In this document: positions 31,443 to 42,918 of the stretch, piece after piece
Position numbering within the stretch: position 1 is the stretch's first letter
Layout: every line of letters begins with the position of its first letter
From: Verrucomicrobiia bacterium
GTDB taxonomy: Bacteria; Verrucomicrobiota; Verrucomicrobiia; Verrucomicrobiales; DEV007
Assembly (NCBI GenBank): GCA_030427505.1
Contig: JAUICH010000005.1
Span: 1 to 64,000 of the forward strand
DNA length: 64,000 nucleotides
Direction of reading: 5' to 3'
Translations under genes and position numbers: made by a program
Notes under the pieces: generated by a model
Databases searched by the model: none
The model's input: the letters and a program-made list of their open reading frames with translations, nothing else
What the model was told of the DNA's origin: nothing

Positions 31443-32825
31443 TTATCTTTCATTCGTGAATAAAGCCGTTTCTTCGATGATTTTACAAATACGCACAATT
31501 TGATTTGAAGCAGGCACTCCCCAGCCCCGATTAAACTGCTCCAACGTCCTTCCTACATCTCCCGTAACTGTATCGTCACCCCAAATACCTAACTTTTTAG
31601 ACAGCTCTACGACCATTTTTTCTTCGACACCTACTCCGGTACCGGTAATGTAAAGCGAGAACCACCAATCTCTATCTCTGCCATTAAGGCTCAATTCGTT
31701 TATCAAAAATTCCCCCACCTGAAGGTCCGTCAGATTCCTTTTTGCAATTCCATCGAAAACATTTGGCCTTGCCACCTTGAATGCCGCAAGCATGCACGTC
31801 GCGGCTGCGTAGCACCATCTTAAGTTTCCCCTCGATTCTCTACCGCATTCAGTTGCATGTCCAATTATACGAAAGGTCTCCTGAATCTGCCTAGGATACA
31901 TCCTGAGACCTAACAGAATCTCTTTCAAGTTAGATGATCTGCCGTATTCCTCAAAACCAATCATGCTCACCCGCCCATTTCCATCTATGAAGTGCTTAAT
32001 GTAACTTTCGACCATATTCGAAACAGCACGCTCTTCCAAATCCGGCAATGAAATGCGTCGATGAACAAATCTTCGAAAATACTCGGGGAAATCCATATTT
32101 TCCCCGTATAATGCCTTCACGGCCGATTCCATTTGGCGATTATCAATTGATAAGACAAAGATCAACCCATCGATATCAAATATATGTTTGATCGTTTCCA
32201 AATATCGGACTGCATAGTCAGGTCTACAACGATCAAGTTCATCGATCATGAAAATCACTTTCGGATTTTCCCCCTCGAACATCTCTCGAAGCAATCCTTT
32301 TAGGTCATTCAGAGCAGATGGACGTTTCTCATACGCCATAATTGCGTCCCATTCCTTACCACCCTTGTCTGCCTTTTTCTCCTCCGCAAACTCTCCTGCG
32401 CTTATTACATCGATGCCTGAAAAGTTCGCAATAATCTGATTCAAGAGCCCAGCACCAAACCAGCCGATATCGCTGACTGCTTCTCGAATCTTATCAACAT
32501 CAGGTTTATCAAGTTCACGCAATCTTAGCGCTTCAATTAGAGATGAGACCAGAGCTACTAATGGATCACCGCAGTAATCGCTCTCCCAAGCATTTAAAAT
32601 GATAGGGACCGGAAGCTCTTTATCATCCTTAGCTCTGGACTCCAAATCGTTGTTCCACATTCGAATAGTTGTGGATTTTCCAGAACCAAACGGACCTTCG
32701 AGGCTTGCCACCAATCCTCCATCGACGTATTTGTGGTCAATGAGCAGATAGCGCTCTAACTTTTGCACGAATCCCTTTCTGGAAAGTAGATCGGCTTCAA
32801 AGTCTGTTGGTGAAATTGGAGCCAT
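31443..32825 (-). CDS. KAP-family P-loop NTPase
   Basis: A 460-aa ATPase. Walker A GPFGSGKST lies at 44-52 and Walker B IFMIDELDRC at 191-200, with the KAP-typical RPDYAVRYLETIKHIFDIDGLIFVLSIDN afterwards; FRRFVHRRISLPDL fits the downstream arginine-containing region. A short hydrophobic stretch at about 122-143 takes the place of the usual membrane insertion. KAP NTPases occur in mobile and defence loci; no effector domain is fused here. The DNA is visibly AT-richer than its neighbours, suggesting recent acquisition. It lies 6 bp after a tiny frame that overlaps the DUF433 gene, making an operon likely. Confidence 0.85.
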   Translation of the reverse strand: MAPISPTDFEADLLSRKGFVQKLERYLLIDHKYVDGGLVASLEGPFGSGKSTTIRMWNNDLESRAKDDKELPVPIILNAWESDYCGDPLVALVSSLIEALRLRELDKPDVDKIREAVSDIGWFGAGLLNQIIANFSGIDVISAGEFAEEKKADKGGKEWDAIMAYEKRPSALNDLKGLLREMFEGENPKVIFMIDELDRCRPDYAVRYLETIKHIFDIDGLIFVLSIDNRQMESAVKALYGENMDFPEYFRRFVHRRISLPDLEERAVSNMVESYIKHFIDGNGRVSMIGFEEYGRSSNLKEILLGLRMYPRQIQETFRIIGHATECGRESRGNLRWCYAAATCMLAAFKVARPNVFDGIAKRNLTDLQVGEFLINELSLNGRDRDWWFSLYITGTGVGVEEKMVVELSKKLGIWGDDTVTGDVGRTLEQFNRGWGVPASNQIVRICKIIEETALFTNER

Positions 32826-33231: not shown

Positions 33232-34437
33232 TTACACCCCCGCCGGTTTCACCGCTTCAGATTCCTCTTCGCTCTCGTCCGTCACCTCTTCAGGACTGGC
33301 GAGGGCATCAGGTTTCTCACTGGACTCTGAAACTGACACGCCCAGACGCTGTAGCACGGCGGTTTCCACCGCCAGGCCGGGTCCGAAGGCAACGGCGAAG
33401 GTCTTCCCTCCTGTGGCTGGTTGATTCAACATTTCCTTGAGCACGAAGAGAATCGTCGCGCTGCTCATGTTTCCGTAGTCATTCAGGACCTTGCGGGCGG
33501 CTTCCTGAGAATCGGCGGGCAGGCCCAGGCTATCGACCACCTTGTCCAGGATGGCACGGCCACCGGGGTGAATGGCCCATTCCGTGATGTCTTCCAGGCG
33601 GAGTTCTTCGCGCAGCAACACGTCGCGAAGGATATCGTCCAGGTTGGCGGCGATGACGTCCGGCACGTAGCTGGAAAGCACGATATTGAAGCCGTTATTC
33701 CCGATATCCCAGGCCATCTCCTGTTCTCCGGAAGGAATGAGAGCGGAAGACAGGCCGTCCAGGCGGAAGGCGGGCTTGTCCGCCGCGGGTTCCCGGGTGG
33801 TGACCAGGGTGGCGGCGGCGCCATCCGCGAAAAGGGAGTTCGCCAGCAGGGTGTCCGGCGAATCGTCAATTTGCAGGTGCAGGCTGCACAATTCCAGGCA
33901 GATCACCAGCACCACGGCGGAGGGATCTGCTTCGCAGAACTGCTTGGCCATACGCAGGGCGGGAAAGGCGGCGTAGCAGCCCATGAACCCGATGGTGTAG
34001 CGCTCGACTGACTGGGGCAGGCCCAGTTCCCGGATGACGTAATATTCAGGTCCCGGATTGCAGAAGCCGGTGCAGGACGCAAAGACGATGTGAGTGACGT
34101 CCGACGGCGCGTAGCCCTCCACCTTTTCGAACAGATTCCGGGAAAGTTGAACCGCTAACTTCTTGGCGCTGTGGGAGTAAAGATCATTCCGCTCCTGGGT
34201 GGTCGGCTCGTGAAGCTGGCCCTCTTCATCGACGCGGAAGAGCTTGCCCTCCACCCCTTCCACGAAGTCGTCATAGACCGTGTGGCGGCGTTCGATGCCG
34301 GAACGGCGGTAAATTGCGTGGGCCAGACGCTTCAGCTTGGGGTCTTCGATCAGACCTTTCATGCGCTCCCGCGCGTATTCCTGGGTGTAGGAATATTCGG
34401 GAACGATCGTTTCAATATGTTGCAAATAGGCTGACAT
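33232..34437 (-). CDS. Type III polyketide synthase (chalcone synthase-like)
   Basis: A 401-aa homodimeric ketosynthase. The catalytic triad is complete: Cys154 in FMGCYAAFP, His290 in WAIHPGG and Asn323 in YGNMSSAT. ASCTGFCNPGPEYYVIRELGL and LELCSLHLQ also match the bacterial family. Such enzymes condense an acyl-CoA starter with malonyl-CoA units to give pyrones, resorcinols or phloroglucinols. The last 33 residues (369-401) are an acidic Glu/Ser tail not usual in the family. No ACP or methyltransferase is adjacent. The two fusion enzymes 2-8 kb away could prenylate, oxidise and glycosylate its product. Confidence 0.92.
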   Translation of the reverse strand: MSAYLQHIETIVPEYSYTQEYARERMKGLIEDPKLKRLAHAIYRRSGIERRHTVYDDFVEGVEGKLFRVDEEGQLHEPTTQERNDLYSHSAKKLAVQLSRNLFEKVEGYAPSDVTHIVFASCTGFCNPGPEYYVIRELGLPQSVERYTIGFMGCYAAFPALRMAKQFCEADPSAVVLVICLELCSLHLQIDDSPDTLLANSLFADGAAATLVTTREPAADKPAFRLDGLSSALIPSGEQEMAWDIGNNGFNIVLSSYVPDVIAANLDDILRDVLLREELRLEDITEWAIHPGGRAILDKVVDSLGLPADSQEAARKVLNDYGNMSSATILFVLKEMLNQPATGGKTFAVAFGPGLAVETAVLQRLGVSVSESSEKPDALASPEEVTDESEEESEAVKPAGV

Positions 34438-34534: not shown

Positions 34535-35677
34535 ATGAAAGCGCTTCTCAAGCCATCTCTGAATTGGTTGCTCATTTTTGTGCCTATCGCCGTCATTTCC
34601 CAATACGCGGCGAACCAACCCACTTTCACCTTTATCGCGGCCTGCATTGCCGTCATTCCGCTGGCTGGGTGGATGGGAAAAGCGACCGAACACCTCGCGG
34701 AACGCACCGGGGCGGCCATCGGCGGGCTCCTGAATGCCACCTTCGGCAACGCGGCGGAATTGATCATCGCCTTCATGGCTCTCCGCGAAGGCTTGCACGA
34801 GATCGTCAAAGCGTCCCTGACCGGTTCCATCATCGGAAACATCCTGCTCGTGCTGGGCGCGGCCTTGCTCGCCGGGGGCTTCAAGCAGCCGGAGCAGGTA
34901 TTCAACGCCATCGGCGCCCGGATCCAGTCCACCCTGCTGACCCTGGCGGCCATCGCGCTGATTGCCCCGGCGGCCTTCCACCACACCGTGCCACCCTCGG
35001 CCTACCACCGGGAAAACCACCTCAGCCTGGCCATTTCAGTCATCCTGCTGGTGGCCTACGGGCTGGGTCTGTTTTTCTCTCTGAAAACGCATAAACATTT
35101 CTTTGCCGGCCACGGACACAGCACGGAAGACAACGTGGAGCAGGACAAACACCACACTTCCCGGCAATCGCCCCACCAGCCCTGGCCCCTGGGCATCGCC
35201 ATTGCCGTGTTGGCGGTGGCGACCGCTCTGGTGGCGTGGATCAGCGAGATCCTGGTCCACACCGTGGAACACGCGGCGGACGCCTTCGGGATGAATCACG
35301 TCTTCGTCGGCGTCATCGTGGTGGCGATCATCGGCAACGCCGCCGAACACAGCACCGCCATCCTCATGGCCCTGAAAAACCGCATGGACCTTGCCCTCGG
35401 CATCGCCATCGGCAGCAGCATCCAGGTGGCCCTCTTCGTCGCCCCCATGCTGGTGCTGTGCAGCTACTTCATCGGCCCCCACCCTCTGGACCTGGTGTTC
35501 ACCCTCCCCGAAGTCATCGCCGTGGCCCTGGCGGTCGCCGTCACCAGCCAGATCGCCGGTGATGGCCGCTCCAATTGGCTCGAAGGCGTCCTCCTCCTCG
35601 CCGTCTACGCCGTCCTGGCGGTGGTATTTTACTTTCTGCCGCTGGACGCTGGCGCGGCCGCCGCTGGCGGGCATTAA
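34535..35677 (+). CDS. cax: Calcium/proton exchanger (CaCA family, Cax-type)
   Basis: A 380-aa membrane protein with about eleven hydrophobic helices in two inverted halves. The signature alpha repeats are GGLLNATFGNAAELIIAFMA in the first half and VAIIGNAAEHSTAILMALK in the second, each with the GNAAE core that binds the cation. A histidine-rich loop (about 188-212, FFAGHGHSTEDNVEQDKHHTS) lies between the halves. It exports Ca2+ in exchange for protons. Divergent from the type III PKS gene; likely a bystander in the cluster. Confidence 0.93.
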   Translation: MKALLKPSLNWLLIFVPIAVISQYAANQPTFTFIAACIAVIPLAGWMGKATEHLAERTGAAIGGLLNATFGNAAELIIAFMALREGLHEIVKASLTGSIIGNILLVLGAALLAGGFKQPEQVFNAIGARIQSTLLTLAAIALIAPAAFHHTVPPSAYHRENHLSLAISVILLVAYGLGLFFSLKTHKHFFAGHGHSTEDNVEQDKHHTSRQSPHQPWPLGIAIAVLAVATALVAWISEILVHTVEHAADAFGMNHVFVGVIVVAIIGNAAEHSTAILMALKNRMDLALGIAIGSSIQVALFVAPMLVLCSYFIGPHPLDLVFTLPEVIAVALAVAVTSQIAGDGRSNWLEGVLLLAVYAVLAVVFYFLPLDAGAAAAGGH

Positions 35678-35688
35678 GTTTGAGGTTC

Positions 35689-36531
35689 ATGTCCCACCCT
35701 TCACTTCCGGAACTCTATTTCCTACACATTCCGAAGACCTCCGGTACCGCTTTCGGCGGCTGGTTGCGCCGCCTATACCCCGTCGAGCAAGCACTACCTG
35801 CTTTCCAATATCATCAGATGGCAGGTTGGTCCCTCGAGAAGATCCGGGCGTTTCGCTGCTACTCCGGTCACTTCGGGCCTTCTTTCAGCGACCTTTTGGG
35901 TCGCCCGCTTCCCACCATCACCTATCTTCGCGATCCCCTGGAGCGCGCGGTGTCTCTGATCCACTTCATTCTGAGAGAGGTCACTCAGTTTCCCGATCAG
36001 GAATCCGCTGACCTGGTTCACTCGATCAAAGCTTCTTCTCACCCCTTCGAAGCCTTCGTCGAGACGGCGGCCCATCTCCCCGGGGTTCGGGACGGCCAAT
36101 GCTGCGAACTGACCCACCGTTGGCCGCTTCAACGCTATCTCACGCCGGAAGGAAACTTTTCTCCAAACCTGGCTACTTTCTGGAATGAAGGCGTGTACCC
36201 GCCCGGTGACCGGCTTCTGGAAGAAGCCCGCGCCTACTTCGATTCTCTGCCCGCGTTCGGAATCGCCGAGTACCCCGAGGAATCTCTCCACTACATTACC
36301 GAAGTCCTCGGTCTGCCCCGAAACGAGCCCTTGCGATGGGAACGCCTCGCGCCCGAGCGCCAGAACCGCTGGCAGCCATTCTACTGGAAAGAAACGCTGC
36401 CGCCCGACATTCGAAGAAAATTAGCCGGGCTCCTGGAAGCCGATCAGGAACTCTATCGGCATGCATTGAATCGTTTTCAGTCCGAGCGGGCTCAGCGTAC
36501 GAGTACTACTTCACCCCGGCTCCCAGGTTAG
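35689..36531 (+). CDS. Sulfotransferase-family protein (Sulfotransfer_2-like)
   Basis: A 280-aa soluble protein. HIPKTSGTAFGGWL near the N-terminus is the 5'-phosphosulfate loop of PAPS-dependent sulfotransferases, and TYLRDPLERAVSLIHFIL (about 80-97) is the 3'-phosphate loop with Arg and Ser. The C-terminal part is family-typical but no acceptor can be inferred. The ATG at 35689 follows GAGG by 4 nt; an in-frame extension overlaps cax and is unlikely. Convergent with the UbiA-AT fusion, ending 26 bp from it. Sulfating a carbohydrate or the product of the neighbouring biosynthetic genes are both possible. Confidence 0.8.
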   Translation: MSHPSLPELYFLHIPKTSGTAFGGWLRRLYPVEQALPAFQYHQMAGWSLEKIRAFRCYSGHFGPSFSDLLGRPLPTITYLRDPLERAVSLIHFILREVTQFPDQESADLVHSIKASSHPFEAFVETAAHLPGVRDGQCCELTHRWPLQRYLTPEGNFSPNLATFWNEGVYPPGDRLLEEARAYFDSLPAFGIAEYPEESLHYITEVLGLPRNEPLRWERLAPERQNRWQPFYWKETLPPDIRRKLAGLLEADQELYRHALNRFQSERAQRTSTTSPRLPG

Positions 36532-36557: not shown

Positions 36558-38927
36558 TTATCCCTGGCCGTCTCCGGCCGCGATCGCCTTTTCCTCGCGC
36601 GAGCCGCCTGTCGCCGCCGCCAGGTCCGCCCCATCCAGCACTCTCACTTCGGGATGGGTGGCGGCCAGCATCCGGTGTAGGTCTTTTCCAAACTGCGCGG
36701 CGCCGATACGGATGACCTGGTCAAAGGCTTGTTCGCTGAGAACTTCCAGGGTAGGCGTCAGACGGGACGGTTCGCTCACCTGACGTTCCCAGTATTCCAC
36801 CCCCATCCGCTCCGTCACCTGCCCACCGGTGATGGTTGAGAAAAACGGAACCCGAGGCGCCTGGAAATCGCACCCCTCCATCACCCGGGCCATTCCGCCG
36901 GTTTCCACCAGCGGCGTGTGGGGCACGCAGGGAATGTTCAGGCATTGCGCCTCGATCCCTTCTTTCTTCAGGTAAGTTTCCAGGTGATTCACCTCCGGTT
37001 TCAATCCCGACCACGCCGAGACGTGCTCCGCCTCGATGGCGCAAAAACATTGCCACGCGTGTTTCCGCACGGCTTCGGCCACCACGGCATTGGAGGCGGA
37101 AATCATCAACATCTCTCCTCCGCTCTCTTCGCGCAGCGCCAGGGACACCGCGCAACAGACTCTCACGCTTTCCTCCAAACCAAACACCCCGGCCGCGTGC
37201 CCGGCGGCGATCTCTCCCAAGCTCACCGCGGAGACCAACCCGTATCGAAGCGGCAGAGTCTTTAGCACCGTGAAAATACAGAGCTGATACAGACACTCCG
37301 CCACCATGCAGACCTCAAACCAGGTAACTTCTTTCCTAACCGGCACACCTTCCAACCGTTCCCGCAAGGACCAACCCAGTTCCTTTCTCAAAATCCGGTC
37401 CGCCCGTCCCAACATTTCCGCCGCTCCGGTCTGCCGGACCAAAAGGGCAAATTTTTCCGGCACGGCCAGGCTGGTGGGACCGAAGTAAAGCAGGGTCACA
37501 CCGGCTTCATCAAGACCGCGCGCGGCCCGAGGCGCCTGCGCCTGCGGTTCCGGCTCGGGCGCGGGAAGTGGCTCTACCTCGAAGGTGTCTTCGTAGAGGG
37601 TCACGCTCGCCGCTCCCTCGTCCCACTCGGCATTCACCGACAGCGCGTAGGTTCGCTTCTTTTTCTTCGCGGCCGGAAGGGGCAAACAGATCCGGAAGCA
37701 CACCGGCTTTTCCGCGATTTCCAGACGCTCATACACCTCGCCAAACCGGTTGGGACCATATTGCAGGTCCACCGGCACGGCCTTTCCTTCCACGTAAACC
37801 GTTACAAAAATGTTCACGTCCGAGCGATCCACCAGGCGGGAGGTCAGGTAGGCGCCCTCGATCATCAGAGTTCCCTGGTTCCGCCCGTGTTCCGCCACCG
37901 CCTTTGGCACCCGATGTCGCCACCGCCAGGCTTCCCAGTATTTCCAGAAGGGAAAGAGCGCCAGATATACCGGCAGCAGGGGCCAATAATCCGGGACCTT
38001 CAGAATGACGTCCACCAGCACCAACAGACTCAGCAGGTCGCGATAGAAGCTGTCCAGAAAAACTGGACGCAACACCGCTCGCCACCCGCCGACGCCATCC
38101 TTCTTGACGCGCCGTTTCCGGTTCCGCCACAGCCACCAGCCGCCGCACAAAATGAAACCGACGCCCGGCAGCCAGAATCCATGAATCCCGGAAAAACCTA
38201 ACACAGCCACCAAAAATCCGCCTTCCTGCGGCACTATGACCCGGTTCATCCACCTTTCGGATTTCTCTTGTCCCATTCGTACCACCGCAGTGCGCACCCC
38301 CGCGGCCCGGTCCGCAGCGTAATCGCCGATTTCGTGGATCAGGATGCCCCGCAGCCCACTGCACAACTGCCAAAGCAGGGCCACCACCAGGAATGCCGCG
38401 CTCCACTCCGGTCCGGCGCCCCCAAATAATCTTCCGCCCGGCCAGAGGATCAAGGCGGATACCGCGAAGGGAATCACATGCGCGTAGCCCGCATCCACCA
38501 GTAATCCGGCACGGCTTTCTTTCAACCGCGCGGGCGGCAGGGAATAGGCCAGGAAGAGCACCAGTTCCACCGCCGCCAGGACATGGAGAAACCCAGGGGC
38601 GCCCGCCAACCACAGACAGCCAAACCCGGCCGCCCCCAGGAGGCAGGCCACGGCGGCGGCCCGGACTTTCGGGGCCCTTGCCCACGCGTTGCGCTTTCCC
38701 GCGCGGGCGTCCGCGTCCACGTCGCCCAAGTCATTGATCACATGCCCGAATGCCGCCGTGAAGATGAAGTAGCCCAGCAGAGATCCTAACAGAGCCAGTA
38801 CTCTGCCCACTCCTTCCCCGGTACCAGGAAGTAACAGGTAGAAGGGCGCCAACAGGTAGCTGATCTTATATTGCCACCAGTCTCCGAACCGGCTCCCCGC
38901 CCGGAGTCTATGCCATGCTTTCTTCAT
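36558..38927 (-). CDS. UbiA prenyltransferase fused to a malonyl-CoA-type acyltransferase domain
   Basis: A 789-aa fusion. Residues 15-335 form a UbiA-type integral membrane prenyltransferase: first Asp-rich motif N65-D-L-G-D69-V-D71-A-D, second motif EIGDYAADRAAGVRT (Asp202 and Asp206), about eight helices. Residues 350-455 form a beta-rich linker domain of unknown family. Residues 470-770 form a FabD/PKS-type acyltransferase: nucleophile Ser569 in VSAVSLGEIAAGHAAG (the usual GHSLGE is SAVSLGE here), His670 in VPHTPLVE, and PFFSTITGGQV with YWERQVSEPSRLTPTL. Prenyl transfer to an aromatic and acyl transfer in one chain is unusual. Its start lies inside the last codons of the upstream fusion gene (20-bp overlap), so the two are translationally coupled. 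Confidence 0.88.
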   Translation of the reverse strand: MKKAWHRLRAGSRFGDWWQYKISYLLAPFYLLLPGTGEGVGRVLALLGSLLGYFIFTAAFGHVINDLGDVDADARAGKRNAWARAPKVRAAAVACLLGAAGFGCLWLAGAPGFLHVLAAVELVLFLAYSLPPARLKESRAGLLVDAGYAHVIPFAVSALILWPGGRLFGGAGPEWSAAFLVVALLWQLCSGLRGILIHEIGDYAADRAAGVRTAVVRMGQEKSERWMNRVIVPQEGGFLVAVLGFSGIHGFWLPGVGFILCGGWWLWRNRKRRVKKDGVGGWRAVLRPVFLDSFYRDLLSLLVLVDVILKVPDYWPLLPVYLALFPFWKYWEAWRWRHRVPKAVAEHGRNQGTLMIEGAYLTSRLVDRSDVNIFVTVYVEGKAVPVDLQYGPNRFGEVYERLEIAEKPVCFRICLPLPAAKKKKRTYALSVNAEWDEGAASVTLYEDTFEVEPLPAPEPEPQAQAPRAARGLDEAGVTLLYFGPTSLAVPEKFALLVRQTGAAEMLGRADRILRKELGWSLRERLEGVPVRKEVTWFEVCMVAECLYQLCIFTVLKTLPLRYGLVSAVSLGEIAAGHAAGVFGLEESVRVCCAVSLALREESGGEMLMISASNAVVAEAVRKHAWQCFCAIEAEHVSAWSGLKPEVNHLETYLKKEGIEAQCLNIPCVPHTPLVETGGMARVMEGCDFQAPRVPFFSTITGGQVTERMGVEYWERQVSEPSRLTPTLEVLSEQAFDQVIRIGAAQFGKDLHRMLAATHPEVRVLDGADLAAATGGSREEKAIAAGDGQG

Positions 38928-41900
38928 GCCGCGTCGCGGGCTGCGGTTTCAGGGTGATCGGCAGTTTCCGCGGACCCCGTAAAAAACCATGGTTGCGGAG
39001 CGGTGACTCTCCTGCTGGCCAGGCCCCGCGCCAGTCCGGATACCGCTCCAACAACCGCCGAATCACGATCCGCGCTTCCAGACGCGCCAGGAGCATGCCC
39101 AAACATTGATGCACGCCACGCCCAAAGGCGAGGTGCGGATTCGGCCGGCGGCCCGCATGAAAGGTGTCCGGCTCTTCAAACTTTATTTCGTCCCGGTTGG
39201 CCGAGCCAATCAGCACCCGAACCGTGTCTCCCGCAGCGATCGATTGACCTCCTAGTTCGACCGGCGCCACCACCGCCCGGCTCACGTGCTGCACCGGACT
39301 TTCATAACGCAGGACCTCATCCAGAAAACCCGGCATCGCGCCGGGATCCTCCCGCAACGCCCTTTTCAAATCCTCCCGGGCGGCCAAAAGCACCACCGCG
39401 TTCGCGACCAGATTCCGCGTGGTGACCACGCCCGCCGCCATCACGAGTAGACACAGGTCCACCTTTGCCTCCTCGCTCAGTTCATCGCTTCCGGACAGAA
39501 ACGAGATTAACCCCCTCTCTTCCCGCTCATCCTTACACAGCTCAATCTCATGGTGGAAATACTCCCGGCACTCGCTGACCCGGGCGGCCAATTCTTCCGG
39601 CTCTAGCGCTTCCTGCTCAAGCTCTGTCCCACTCAACAGCATCTCTATCCATCGTGGAAGCCGGTCCGCCGTTTCCCGGTCCAGTCCCATCAGCTCAGTT
39701 ACGACCCACGTGGGCAGAAGCAGGGCCAGCCCTTGAATAAAATCTCCAGTTCCCTGGCTCTCCAAGGCCGAGAGCATTTCATCCGTCCATCCTTCGATTT
39801 TCTCCTCCAATTTTCCCAGGCGTTCCGGTTCGAAAAATCCCCGCATCAGGGCCCTGACTTTCTCGTGCGCCTCACCATCAGCCCCCATGAGCGTGGATTC
39901 GAAGGAGTGTCCCCGGGTCGAGAAGGTGGCGGGATCGTTCAGCACGCGGGCACAATCTTCATACCGGCTTACCAGCCAGACCTGGAGGTTTTCGTCAAAG
40001 CTAACCGGCGCCTCTTCCCTAAGGGCTTTCATCTGGGGGTAGGGGTTCCAGCGAAAACCCGCGTCCGAAAAATCCAATGTCACCTTGCCGCCGGACGCGA
40101 ATTCTTCGGGGCGGGATTCTTCGTCCACGTCCAAGCCTGACGGCGCCGCCGGGGGATTCTCAGGCAGGTCGTTCCCAGCCAGGGCTTCCAGGCAGAAGGC
40201 GGTGGTTAGCTCCTCACTCCCCCAAAACTCCGCCGGTCCCCGGTAAAAGGCCGCGCGCGGCCAACTGCCGTCTGGTCCCTGCCACCCGATCAGCCTTTCC
40301 AACGCCGCTCCCAAGGCTTCGGATTCCGGGGCGAAGCACCACAGCGCGCAGGCCGCCATCGCCGTCAGCATCGCCGCCTCGGGACCTTCCTCCGAAAGCT
40401 GAGCCAGCCGTTTTTCCAACCGCTCCCGGACCGGTTCTTTCGCGGTTTTCAATCCCGGCGCCGCGTGTTTGGCGGCCCGTGCCATCATGTAGTACAACGC
40501 TATCTCGTCCGTGTAGTAAGCACCCAGGTCGCCGTTCAAGCCCGGCCGTTGCACCAGGCGGACCAGATAGTCCACGACCGCCCGCGTCCGCTCTCCTTCT
40601 CCCAGGTAGAGCAGCACGTTCGCGTTCACCACCGGGTCGACCTCCCTGGCGGTCACCGGGTCCCTGGGTTCCGCGAACCGGCCGCTGACCGCTTTTTCCG
40701 GCGGCATCGGCGGCGCCTTGGCTTCGGCCAGGGTATCCAAGGTGTTAAGATACGCCGTAAACTCCGGTGAATGGCCTTCCTCCGGAAGCAGCCACGTGTA
40801 GTACAGCCCCTCCGGGCTCCGCAGAGCTTCAAAGATCCACTCGTTTTCCGGTACCGCCTGCCCGCGGCGCCGTTTCAGCACAAAGGCCGCGCACGAAGTA
40901 TCATCCAGGTCGGGCGGAATCCGCGAGTGCTTGAACTGCTTGGCGGTGTAGTACCGCCACACACCTCCCGGCTCCATCTGGGTCTCCAGGAAAGACAGGG
41001 CCCGCCCCAACATCGCCTCAGCCCCCGGAAGCGCCTCCAGGGCCTGGGCAACGAGCGCCGTGACGAAGGGCGAACTGTCCCATTCTCCTTCTTCCAGCGA
41101 GGGCCGCGTGGAAATCAGGGTCCGGAACTCTCCATCCGGCAACTGCGCCCGCTCCAGAAACTCCAGGGCGAGCGAAATGGCGTGGCGCTTCCTCCCGGCG
41201 TCGTCCACCGGAATGCTACCCTCTGTCTTGTGCTCTCTCCCGGGCAGTTCGCGCTTCTCTCCGGCGGTTCGAGGACTGAAGCCCGCCGCCCCGGGCAAGG
41301 CCGCCCCGTTTAACAGAGCGCCCGCGATGCGGTCCGCGTAATCCTGGAACCGGTAGTGTTTTCCCACATACGCCGCTCCGAGTTCCCGCACGGCCTTGGT
41401 TTCCACACTGTCCGCCGCCAAGAGGCCGTCCAGAGCGCGTCCCGCCGCCTCCAGGCTCTGGTAGGGCACCACCCGGCCAAAGCCTGTTTCCACGATCATC
41501 TCCGCGCACCCCTGATCCCGGTCGAACCCAATCACCGGCACGCCCGCCAGAAAGGCTTCCAGCACCACACTCGGAAACGGATCGATCCGCGAGCACAACA
41601 AGAAGGCATCCGCCATCCCCATCACGGGCCTCACGTCTTCCATTTCATCGCAGTGATGAAAGTGGCCAATCACGCCGTCCCGCCGCAGGTCGTGCAAGCC
41701 ATGTTCGTACAGGTCGTGTTGACCGATCGCGCCTACCCACAAAAAGTGCGTCCGGGGAGCATGCGGAGAGTGCCCGTGATAATACCGGACGAACCGCGTC
41801 AGCCAGTCGAATCCCTTCCTCGACTCGATGGTCCCGCAGCAAACCACCAGCCGGTCCCTGGGGCCCAGGAAATTTTCTTTGCGAACCCGCTCCACCAGCG

Positions 41901-42918
41901 CCGCCGACGCCGCCGTGTCCACCGGCTCCCATTCCATCTGGTAACAGCCCTGCGGCAAGATGGAAAATCGCGTCTCTTTCAGGCCGCTTCGCCCCTCCCT
42001 TCCCAAAACCTCCGCGAAACGGCGGGACACGTCCCGGCAGGGAAACACCACGTCCGCCGAAACCTCAAAATGCCGCCAAATCCGCTCTTTCTCGAACGCA
42101 TAGGGGTACTCATGGATCAAAGAAAATACCTGTAGCCCCGCCTCCCGGCACCGCGTGGCCAGGTCCGTGGCGCAAAGCGAATTGATCAGCGCCAGCCGCC
42201 TGTCCCCCACCTTGGCCACCTGTCCCAGCGCCGTGAAAAACTCCGCGGTTTCACGGGGAGCCGCCTCCGCCGCCTCGTCCAGTTCTTCCACGATGTCCAC
42301 GCGGCACTCCCGGAACGCTTCGTACAGCGGTCCCCACGGCCCGGAGCACAGCAGAAGAACATCCACGTCCCGGCGCGCCCGCAAGCGCCGGACCAGTTCA
42401 AGAATGATCATCGGCGCACCCGTGCGTGTCAGGGCATGGGTCCCTACCACCAACAGATCTCCCTTCGCCGGTTGTCTCTCCCGGAGTGCTTTCGTGTGCC
42501 GCTGCATCTTTCGGCCCAGTTCGCTCCGAACTTCCCGCTTCCAATTCACCGCATTCACCAGGCTCCACACCGGTATCTCCCGCGGCTCGTTTGGGAACTG
42601 CTGCCCGGTTTCCACAATCCGGAATTGGAACCATTCCGGCCGTGTCTCGGCGGAAAACCATTCCGCCGGCACCGGCAGAGAAAACCCATGGCCATCCGGC
42701 ATCTCCCCCGGCTTCAGCGAGGGCCCGTCCGCCCGGGTCTGACCATAGACCTCACCCGAAGGCCCCACCAATTCCACCAAAAAACACCTTTCAGGCGCGC
42801 CCGGCGCAAATACTCCGCCATGAAGACGCAACTCCGAGACCCCAAAGTAGCGCCGCTTCATAGACAAAGCCGACGGATCTTGCGCCACGGATCTGGAAAC
42901 ACGTTTGAAACGAAACAT
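38908..42918 (-). CDS. GT4 glycosyltransferase - terpene-cyclase-like - cytochrome P450 triple fusion
   Basis: A single uninterrupted 1336-aa frame. Residues 1-130: beta-rich N-terminal domain, unknown. About 150-540: GT-B glycosyltransferase of family 4 type (VCCGTIESRKGFDWL, SRIDPFPSVVLEAFLAGVPV, with the E-x7-E-like region). About 575-915: all-helical (alpha/alpha) barrel of the prenyltransferase/squalene-cyclase type, with D670-L-D-D-T674 matching the DxDDT acid motif of class II terpene cyclases and a QW-like repeat WQGPDGSW (879-886). About 945-1330: P450 with I-helix AAGVVTTRN, E1201-VLR1204 and haem loop FGRGVHQCLG (Cys1272). The barrel is about half the length of squalene-hopene cyclase. 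ATG 42918 follows GGGGA by about 8 nt. No signal peptide. Confidence 0.88.
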   Translation of the reverse strand: MFRFKRVSRSVAQDPSALSMKRRYFGVSELRLHGGVFAPGAPERCFLVELVGPSGEVYGQTRADGPSLKPGEMPDGHGFSLPVPAEWFSAETRPEWFQFRIVETGQQFPNEPREIPVWSLVNAVNWKREVRSELGRKMQRHTKALRERQPAKGDLLVVGTHALTRTGAPMIILELVRRLRARRDVDVLLLCSGPWGPLYEAFRECRVDIVEELDEAAEAAPRETAEFFTALGQVAKVGDRRLALINSLCATDLATRCREAGLQVFSLIHEYPYAFEKERIWRHFEVSADVVFPCRDVSRRFAEVLGREGRSGLKETRFSILPQGCYQMEWEPVDTAASAALVERVRKENFLGPRDRLVVCCGTIESRKGFDWLTRFVRYYHGHSPHAPRTHFLWVGAIGQHDLYEHGLHDLRRDGVIGHFHHCDEMEDVRPVMGMADAFLLCSRIDPFPSVVLEAFLAGVPVIGFDRDQGCAEMIVETGFGRVVPYQSLEAAGRALDGLLAADSVETKAVRELGAAYVGKHYRFQDYADRIAGALLNGAALPGAAGFSPRTAGEKRELPGREHKTEGSIPVDDAGRKRHAISLALEFLERAQLPDGEFRTLISTRPSLEEGEWDSSPFVTALVAQALEALPGAEAMLGRALSFLETQMEPGGVWRYYTAKQFKHSRIPPDLDDTSCAAFVLKRRRGQAVPENEWIFEALRSPEGLYYTWLLPEEGHSPEFTAYLNTLDTLAEAKAPPMPPEKAVSGRFAEPRDPVTAREVDPVVNANVLLYLGEGERTRAVVDYLVRLVQRPGLNGDLGAYYTDEIALYYMMARAAKHAAPGLKTAKEPVRERLEKRLAQLSEEGPEAAMLTAMAACALWCFAPESEALGAALERLIGWQGPDGSWPRAAFYRGPAEFWGSEELTTAFCLEALAGNDLPENPPAAPSGLDVDEESRPEEFASGGKVTLDFSDAGFRWNPYPQMKALREEAPVSFDENLQVWLVSRYEDCARVLNDPATFSTRGHSFESTLMGADGEAHEKVRALMRGFFEPERLGKLEEKIEGWTDEMLSALESQGTGDFIQGLALLLPTWVVTELMGLDRETADRLPRWIEMLLSGTELEQEALEPEELAARVSECREYFHHEIELCKDEREERGLISFLSGSDELSEEAKVDLCLLVMAAGVVTTRNLVANAVVLLAAREDLKRALREDPGAMPGFLDEVLRYESPVQHVSRAVVAPVELGGQSIAAGDTVRVLIGSANRDEIKFEEPDTFHAGRRPNPHLAFGRGVHQCLGMLLARLEARIVIRRLLERYPDWRGAWPAGESPLRNHGFLRGPRKLPITLKPQPATRHEESMA

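Follow-up and report, generated by a model that had tools for sequence, protein, structure and literature searches.

A UbiA prenyltransferase–acyltransferase fusion encoded next to a glycosyltransferase–terpene cyclase–P450 fusion in Verrucomicrobiota, with a proposed role in making cyclised prenyl products

UbiA prenyltransferases and class II terpene cyclases, usually encoded by separate genes, form the core of meroterpenoid chemistry, and the company of a cytochrome P450 and a class II cyclase is typical of terpenoid pathways. The locus considered here lies in a stretch of 64,000 nucleotides from a Verrucomicrobiia bacterium (Verrucomicrobiales; DEV007; assembly GCA_030427505.1, contig JAUICH010000005.1, positions 1 to 64,000 of the forward strand; hereafter the window) and consists of two overlapping genes, one for a UbiA–beta domain–acyltransferase (AT) fusion, the other for a partner in which a family 4 glycosyltransferase (GT4), a class II terpene cyclase beta domain (TC-beta) and a P450 are joined. 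In our estimate the chances are about even that these genes work as a compact assembly line in which a prenyl product is cyclised, oxidised and glycosylated, the likeliest product being a meroterpenoid or a terpenoid glycolipid. Its chemistry would resemble that of the merosterols and drimanes; no report of a UbiA–AT or a GT4–TC-beta–P450 fusion was found in the literature covered, with subscription journals and preprints mostly outside that coverage.

The closest described system is the cyanobacterial merosterol pathway, in which, according to the accessible part of its description, a UbiA-like prenyltransferase and a squalene–hopene-cyclase-like enzyme yield a cyclised product, the cluster holding two P450s (PMC5618424). 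The present operon shares with it the UbiA enzyme, the monodomain class II cyclase and the P450, but it differs in that GT4, cyclase and P450 reside in one polypeptide, that a beta domain and an AT are attached to UbiA, and that the operon adjoins a sulfotransferase gene, with no aromatic-acceptor genes recognised. For the sulfated sponge merotriterpenoids (adociasulfates) the same part of that paper proposes a pathway calling for prenyl transfer by a UbiA-like enzyme, class II cyclisation, oxidation and the action of a sulfotransferase; unlike the operon, this is a proposal without genes, it concerns C30 chains, and the part available mentions no glycosyl or acyl transfer (PMC5618424). The HAD–TC-beta drimenol synthases and AstC likewise have a single TC-beta with a DxD(D/T)T motif, fused to other enzymes. 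In the available portions of the respective papers, the middle Asp of DxDTT is described as essential in AsDMS (PMC9128629), and a DxDT acid–base pair is reported for AstC (PMC13244436).

The fusion gene (36558..38927, minus strand) is one open reading frame (ORF) encoding the 789-aa protein P0001, with Pfam matches, both exceeding the curated cut-offs, to UbiA (E 1.2e-12, aa 37-276) and Acyl_transf_1 (E 2.5e-15, aa 495-741). The hallmark of the UbiA superfamily is a pair of Asp-rich motifs, NxxxDxxxD and DxxxD, which appear as N65-x3-D69-x3-D73 and D202-x3-D206; the AT residues Ser569 and His670 lie in SAVSLGE and VPHTP, respectively. The preliminary description of this DNA had thus correctly placed both enzymes in a single chain, together with the two Asp motifs (65-73 and 202-206) and the Ser569/His670 pair; it did not take in the neighbouring genes that hint at a function, namely the overlapping GT4–TC-beta–P450 gene and the sulfotransferase gene. 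A search for UbiA–AT architectures recovered the same layout in a second genome, G448 (49% identity over aa 6-766), the single other such genome among the 74 of the family, the window genome included. Both fused copies retain Ser and His, and the homologues are not all split, one of four relatives (G448) being fused to an AT. Because G448 carries UbiA, beta domain and AT in the same order, an assembly chimera or a chance ORF is ruled out, and the fusion is real. Neither a ketosynthase (KS) nor an acyl carrier protein (ACP) was recognised by Pfam in the fusion protein or its partner.

The partner gene (38908..42918, minus strand) lies upstream, its stop falling 20 nt inside the fusion gene; elsewhere the gap between partner and UbiA gene amounts to −1 nt (G448), 47 nt (G449), −4 nt (G444) and 6 nt (G479), these four genomes holding the homologues. 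The 1336-aa product begins with a conserved domain seen in the alignment (42589..42861, minus strand), for which no Pfam family was found at E up to 5, followed by the GT4 catalytic match (aa 345-503; 41410..41886, minus strand; Glyco_trans_1_4 1.2e-14, Glycos_transf_1 1.9e-12), TC-beta (aa 579-919; 40162..41184, minus strand) and the P450 domain (approximately aa 958-1325; 38944..40047, minus strand; Pfam p450 1.5e-22; NCBIfam P450 951-1323) with the heme-Cys motif FGRGVHQCLG at 1265. The window copy of TC-beta matched no Pfam cyclase family, and SQHop_cyclase_C reached 19.2-20.9 bits in three relatives, under its cut-off of 26.1. A four-sequence TC-beta profile searched against the PDB returned AstC (9.4e-6), drimenol synthase (1.7e-5) and bacterial squalene–hopene-type cyclases (from 1.9e-5), and a DLDDT motif (aa 670-674; 40897..40911, minus strand), invariant in all five verrucomicrobial loci, aligned opposite the DxDTT-type motif of the PDB cyclases. 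The AF2 model of the domain (pLDDT 78.8, pTM 0.84) matched drimenol synthase in Foldseek (4.4e-10) and in VIA-align (9mhs_B; Z 27.5, rmsd 2.8, 283 residues), with MstE at Z 24.8-25.3 and the best unrelated toroid enzyme at 18.7. Since profile and fold searches place the middle domain among the class II cyclases, it is, on the strength of these comparisons, a class II terpene cyclase beta domain, and the partner reads as GT4–TC-beta–P450. The PDB titles of MstE name geranylgeranyl dihydroxybenzoate as the substrate. Unlike the drimenol synthases and AstC, the partner has no HAD-like phosphatase domain, Pfam giving just P450 and GT4 at E up to 0.01 over its 1336 residues; its cyclase is fused instead to GT4 and P450, and UbiA is encoded by the adjacent gene.

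The UbiA part (aa 13-328; 37944..38891, minus strand) was delimited by Pfam, a structural model, hydropathy and loop charges, and includes a hydrophobic stretch (312-328) taken as the tenth membrane helix. P0001 scores 48.1 bits with UbiA (PF01040; cut-off 34.2), and its relatives 59.0 (G444), 41.0 (G449) and 33.2 (G448, just under); N65, D69, D73, D202 and D206 are invariant in the four aligned sequences. The model fits the A. fulgidus UbiA homologue (4tq4_C) with Z 19.0 and rmsd 3.9 over 253 residues, a moderate margin, as isoprenoid synthases reach Z 15. At E < 0.001, Foldseek matched the fusion model to UbiA only, the beta and AT parts being modelled at low confidence. The beta-rich domain (aa 346-455; 37563..37892, minus strand) is apparent from strands in this low-confidence model and from a profile that finds it in five of 386 genomes of the order; the stretch 37533-37892 gave no Pfam match even at E up to 5. 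The model has nine long helices in addition to the stretch 312-328, and when ten membrane segments are assumed, the last of them placed by hand, the loops on the side of the Asp motifs contain 24 Lys and Arg residues, as compared with one on the opposite side. The Asp motifs of known UbiA enzymes face the cytosol. With this orientation the beta domain and AT would be cytosolic, the charges suggesting a tenth membrane helix that brings the C-terminus back to that side.

The AT part (aa 477-770; 36618..37499, minus strand), defined by Pfam and by alignment, scores 57.2 bits with Acyl_transf_1 (PF00698; cut-off 32.7), the G448 copy 34.4. By profile it belongs to the fold family of FabD and the type I polyketide synthase (PKS) acyltransferases, whose Ser/His dyad it shares: in an alignment of 40 rows, made up of 38 comparison AT domains from relatives (FabD-like and PKS) and the two fused copies, the dyad is present throughout. 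Unlike these enzymes, the fusion AT is joined to a membrane prenyltransferase and has lost an Asn and the carboxylate-binding Arg. Arg occupies its position in 38/38 comparison domains, with Val594 in P0001 and Gly in G448, and Asn is equally constant (38/38), with Glu632 in P0001 and Val in G448. The GQG loop, occupied by Gln (27), Met (6) or Asn (1) in the 34 comparison rows that have letters there, has Pro in the fused copies and reads GPT. Weak matches to the FabD and MdcH models fall far under their cut-offs (35.1 bits as compared with 260.9 for the fabD equivalog TIGR00128). The Arg of FabD binds the malonyl carboxylate, and its replacement is the reason to infer that the fusion AT transfers an acyl group without a free carboxylate. 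Hence the initial label "malonyl-CoA-type" found no support in the comparison, and the nucleophile context SAVSLGE, at first regarded as a departure, turned out to be unexceptional, as FabD-like ATs of the phylum read LSLGE there; judged by the alignment, what truly sets the fused ATs apart is the loss of Arg, Asn and the Gln-loop residues, not the residue preceding the nucleophile. The suggestion that the acyl donor or acceptor differs from that of FabD gained support as likely. VSLGE and PHTPL around Ser and His are kept in both fused copies, whose mutual identity is 55.0% for UbiA, 46.2% for the beta domain and 43.9% for the AT; with a value so near that of the beta domain, the AT does not look like a decaying domain. 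A PKS-type AT is found elsewhere in the same genome within a 4040-aa open frame (G000:C4:6828-7586, locus L002), and many family genomes likewise have AT matches within frames of about 4000 aa.

Beyond the two fused copies, UbiA and the beta domain occur without AT in frames of 457 (G449) and 458 aa (G444), and in a 475-aa ORF of G479, a single-contig genome of another family. These, together with the window genome and G448, are the genomes in which the beta-domain profile was found across the 386 of the order; among 266 genomes drawn from the class, it was found in the window genome alone. The AT is fused in two of the five UbiA–beta loci and absent from three, and the GT4–TC-beta–P450 gene precedes UbiA–beta in all five. 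P0001 matched 123 of 387 genomes drawn from the phylum, and, the window genome aside, every match lay in the AT part. Short matches outside the AT in G405 (aa 299-355, E 6e-4) and G457 (aa 84-142, E 1e-3) were taken as chance; none of the profiles for UbiA, TC-beta, the N-domain and the beta domain matched in their loci (L069, L070). Weak partial TC-beta matches were seen in G217 and G364. Pattern scans of genome contigs, which require exact short peptide patterns so that distant loci can escape, found no relative with P0001 and three loci with the TC-beta profile (G448, G444, G449). In stop-to-stop frames of at least 60 aa from 12 loci, the AT profile, built with the fused copies included, matched L063 alone, and the beta domain occurred in verrucomicrobial loci alone. 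The TC-beta tree had no well supported branch.

The N-terminal domain and GT4 of the partner also occur in another setting: in G454 (L066:5589-8189) they run into a sulfotransferase-like stretch (GFHRSGTSYLSQYLQ), with no cyclase. To judge from these arrangements, the GT4 module with its N-terminal domain seems to be shuffled between partners. Furthermore, a small P-loop ATPase-like stretch (GPPASGKST) stands just before the partner gene in G479 (L102:5994-6665), and a like stretch is in frame with the partner gene in G444 (L064:1535-2062), Pfam AAA being under its cut-off in both.

Other phyla were covered by 72,556 plasmid records, and their chromosomes by pattern scans only. P0001 matched parts of 177 plasmid records, none with 80% coverage, and tblastn detected TC-beta in two, from Nostoc sp. 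C052 and Novosphingobium RL4. The Nostoc plasmid pC052_D encodes a related UbiA (Pfam 4.2e-19) and TC-beta (2.7e-72, with DLDDT) in one chain of 1218 aa, PhyH–UbiA–TC-beta–TPR (WP_179070293.1; L098:7131-10787); unlike the verrucomicrobial operon, it has PhyH and TPR in place of GT4, P450, beta domain and AT. This chain is annotated merely as a TPR protein, and an ABC-2 exporter, glycosyltransferases and a sulfotransferase are near. On the Novosphingobium plasmid a gene for a UbiA of 342 aa and one for TC-beta (3e-41, with DVDDT) lie close together within 7995-11027 of L101. On an Oscillatoria plasmid with a related UbiA the order is methyltransferase–UbiA–PhyH, and on a Methylomagnum plasmid a related UbiA (4e-45) stands beside a 1095-aa GT4 protein, with a polyprenyl synthetase gene nearby; no TC-beta was present in the stretches read of either, and a profile search of stop-to-stop frames (at least 60 aa) gave no TC-beta match in L099 or L105.

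On the other side of the fusion gene and convergent with it lies a sulfotransferase-like gene (280 aa; 35689..36531, plus strand), whose orthologue, 49% identical, occupies the same position beside the fusion gene of G448. Both remain under the cut-off of Sulfotransfer_2 (PF03567; 18.1 bits in the window and 21.5 in G448, cut-off 22). Among the 74 family genomes a close copy exists in these two only; three partial matches come from G395, G392 and G389 (E 1.0e-8 to 1.4e-6), G444 and G449 gave none, and none was recognised in the 20 kb of G479, which is outside that search. AT and sulfotransferase thus co-occur in both AT-bearing loci, possibly as a result of one event, a number too small for a statistical claim. 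Further along, a DpgA/chalcone-synthase-like type III PKS gene (33232-34437, minus strand) is divergent from a Na/Ca exchanger gene (34535-35677, plus strand). The PKS was considered as a supplier of the acceptor and dropped: a like pair stands apart from the UbiA operon in L074 (G449, on a contig other than that of its operon) and in L076 (G447, where protein searches of the family genomes found no UbiA operon), and type III PKS-type matches, weak ones counted, occur in 59 of the 74 family genomes. A stand-alone second P450 (30273-31421, plus strand) near the operon is 25% identical to the fused one. The KAP-family NTPase gene (31443-32825, minus strand) is probably a recent arrival, because its third-position GC is 0.43, as compared with 0.7-0.8 for most neighbours.

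By analogy with the systems outlined above, the pairing of UbiA with TC-beta is the main mechanistic lead. The domain layout and its conservation, the operon, the identity of TC-beta from profile and fold, the missing AT residues and the joint occurrence of the genes are observed; from them we infer substrates, order of steps, AT activity, topology and product class along the following lines. As expected from its family, the UbiA domain would move a prenyl chain onto an acceptor, whereupon TC-beta, in line with its fold, its motif and the recurrent pairing with UbiA, would protonate the chain via DLDDT and fold the rings, as MstE does on geranylgeranylated dihydroxybenzoate. The P450 and GT4 domains of the partner could then oxidise and glycosylate the cyclised product. 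In the two AT-bearing loci, the AT may use Ser569 to pass an acyl group that lacks a free carboxylate from a CoA or ACP donor to the product, which the adjoining sulfotransferase may sulfate; it can be rationalized that the tenth membrane helix, by bringing the C-terminus into the cytosol, would enable the AT to meet both donor and partner enzyme. Several observations weigh against this scheme. Neither a prenyl diphosphate synthase nor an aromatic-acceptor gene was recognised among the genes of the operon, with which the type III PKS close by seems unconnected; MstE fits the cyclase slightly less well than the drimenol synthases, which use free farnesyl diphosphate (FPP); the DxDTT stretches alone score just 1.6 and 3.6 bits in the PDB profile search; and just five such verrucomicrobial loci were found. 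The related UbiA genes of Nostoc, Methylomagnum and Novosphingobium sit among glycan-type genes and ABC-2 exporters, which would fit a glycan target equally. As to the AT, its part of the model is mostly at pLDDT < 50, and with Asn and the Gln loop also lost it could be inactive.

The better fit to the drimenol synthases leads to the view that the first two steps are reversed, TC-beta cyclising free FPP or geranylgeranyl diphosphate (GGPP) to a cyclic prenyl diphosphate of the drimenyl type and UbiA then transferring the cyclic unit to an acceptor. By sequence and by fold TC-beta indeed comes closest to the synthases of drimenol and drimenyl diphosphate and to AstC, enzymes that act on FPP as far as the accessible text of PMC9128629 goes, and with no HAD phosphatase domain in the chain the diphosphate would remain for UbiA. 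On the other hand, MstE, an enzyme acting on prenylated dihydroxybenzoate, matches nearly as well (Z of about 25), and AsDMS is reported, in the available part of PMC12365925, to bind the substrate head rather like MstE/merosterolic acid synthase, so that we regard the reversed order as rather unlikely, if to be reckoned with. Along different lines, UbiA and TC-beta could put a cyclised prenyl group on a surface glycan or its lipid carrier, with AT and sulfotransferase as further glycan modifications. The fusion of GT4 to the cyclase speaks for such a target, as do the glycosyltransferases, sulfotransferases and ABC-2 exporters around the related UbiA genes on the three plasmids, and the ORFs after UbiA on the G444 contig that read, by eye, like a sugar-nucleotide isomerase and a GT2. 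However, the ORF lists of the window, L063, L065 and L102 show no glycan exporter adjoining the operon, and P450 plus class II cyclase is usual in terpenoid pathways; a glycan target is in our view unlikely.

Two further alternatives concern the AT itself. Loss of the Arg, Asn and Gln loop and absence of the domain from three of the five loci would be compatible with an AT that is no longer an enzyme and serves in docking or dimerisation, although an idle domain hardly accounts for the preservation of Ser and His with VSLGE and PHTPL in both fused copies, or for an overall conservation about equal to that of the beta domain; such a role is quite improbable. Even less credit, close to none, is given to an ordinary malonyl-CoA:ACP transferase fused by happenstance: the family match (E 2.5e-15) and the weak hits to FabD and MdcH models are what it has in its favour, and they are countered by the missing Arg in both fused copies, by at least one other AT in the genome, that of the 4040-aa frame, and by the lack of a recognisable KS or ACP in the two proteins.

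In a wider frame, and with decided reserve, one may speculate that the operon and its plasmid counterparts represent an undescribed class of machines, found in Verrucomicrobiota, Cyanobacteriota and Pseudomonadota at the least, in which UbiA and TC-beta decorate surface glycans or glycolipids with cyclised prenyl (terpenoid) groups. The tenth helix of UbiA would allow cytosolic enzymes to be attached behind it, namely TC-beta with TPR in Nostoc, PhyH in Oscillatoria, and the beta domain with the AT in the present operon, where the AT, no longer malonate-binding, would acylate at the membrane. In the verrucomicrobial lineages the set of activities is packed into two genes that overlap and that hold one enzyme fusion each, which would make for a short pathway, one in which the AT fold has apparently moved away from malonate. 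UbiA beside a DLDDT toroid may furthermore serve as a sequence handle for like loci in cyanobacteria and proteobacteria.

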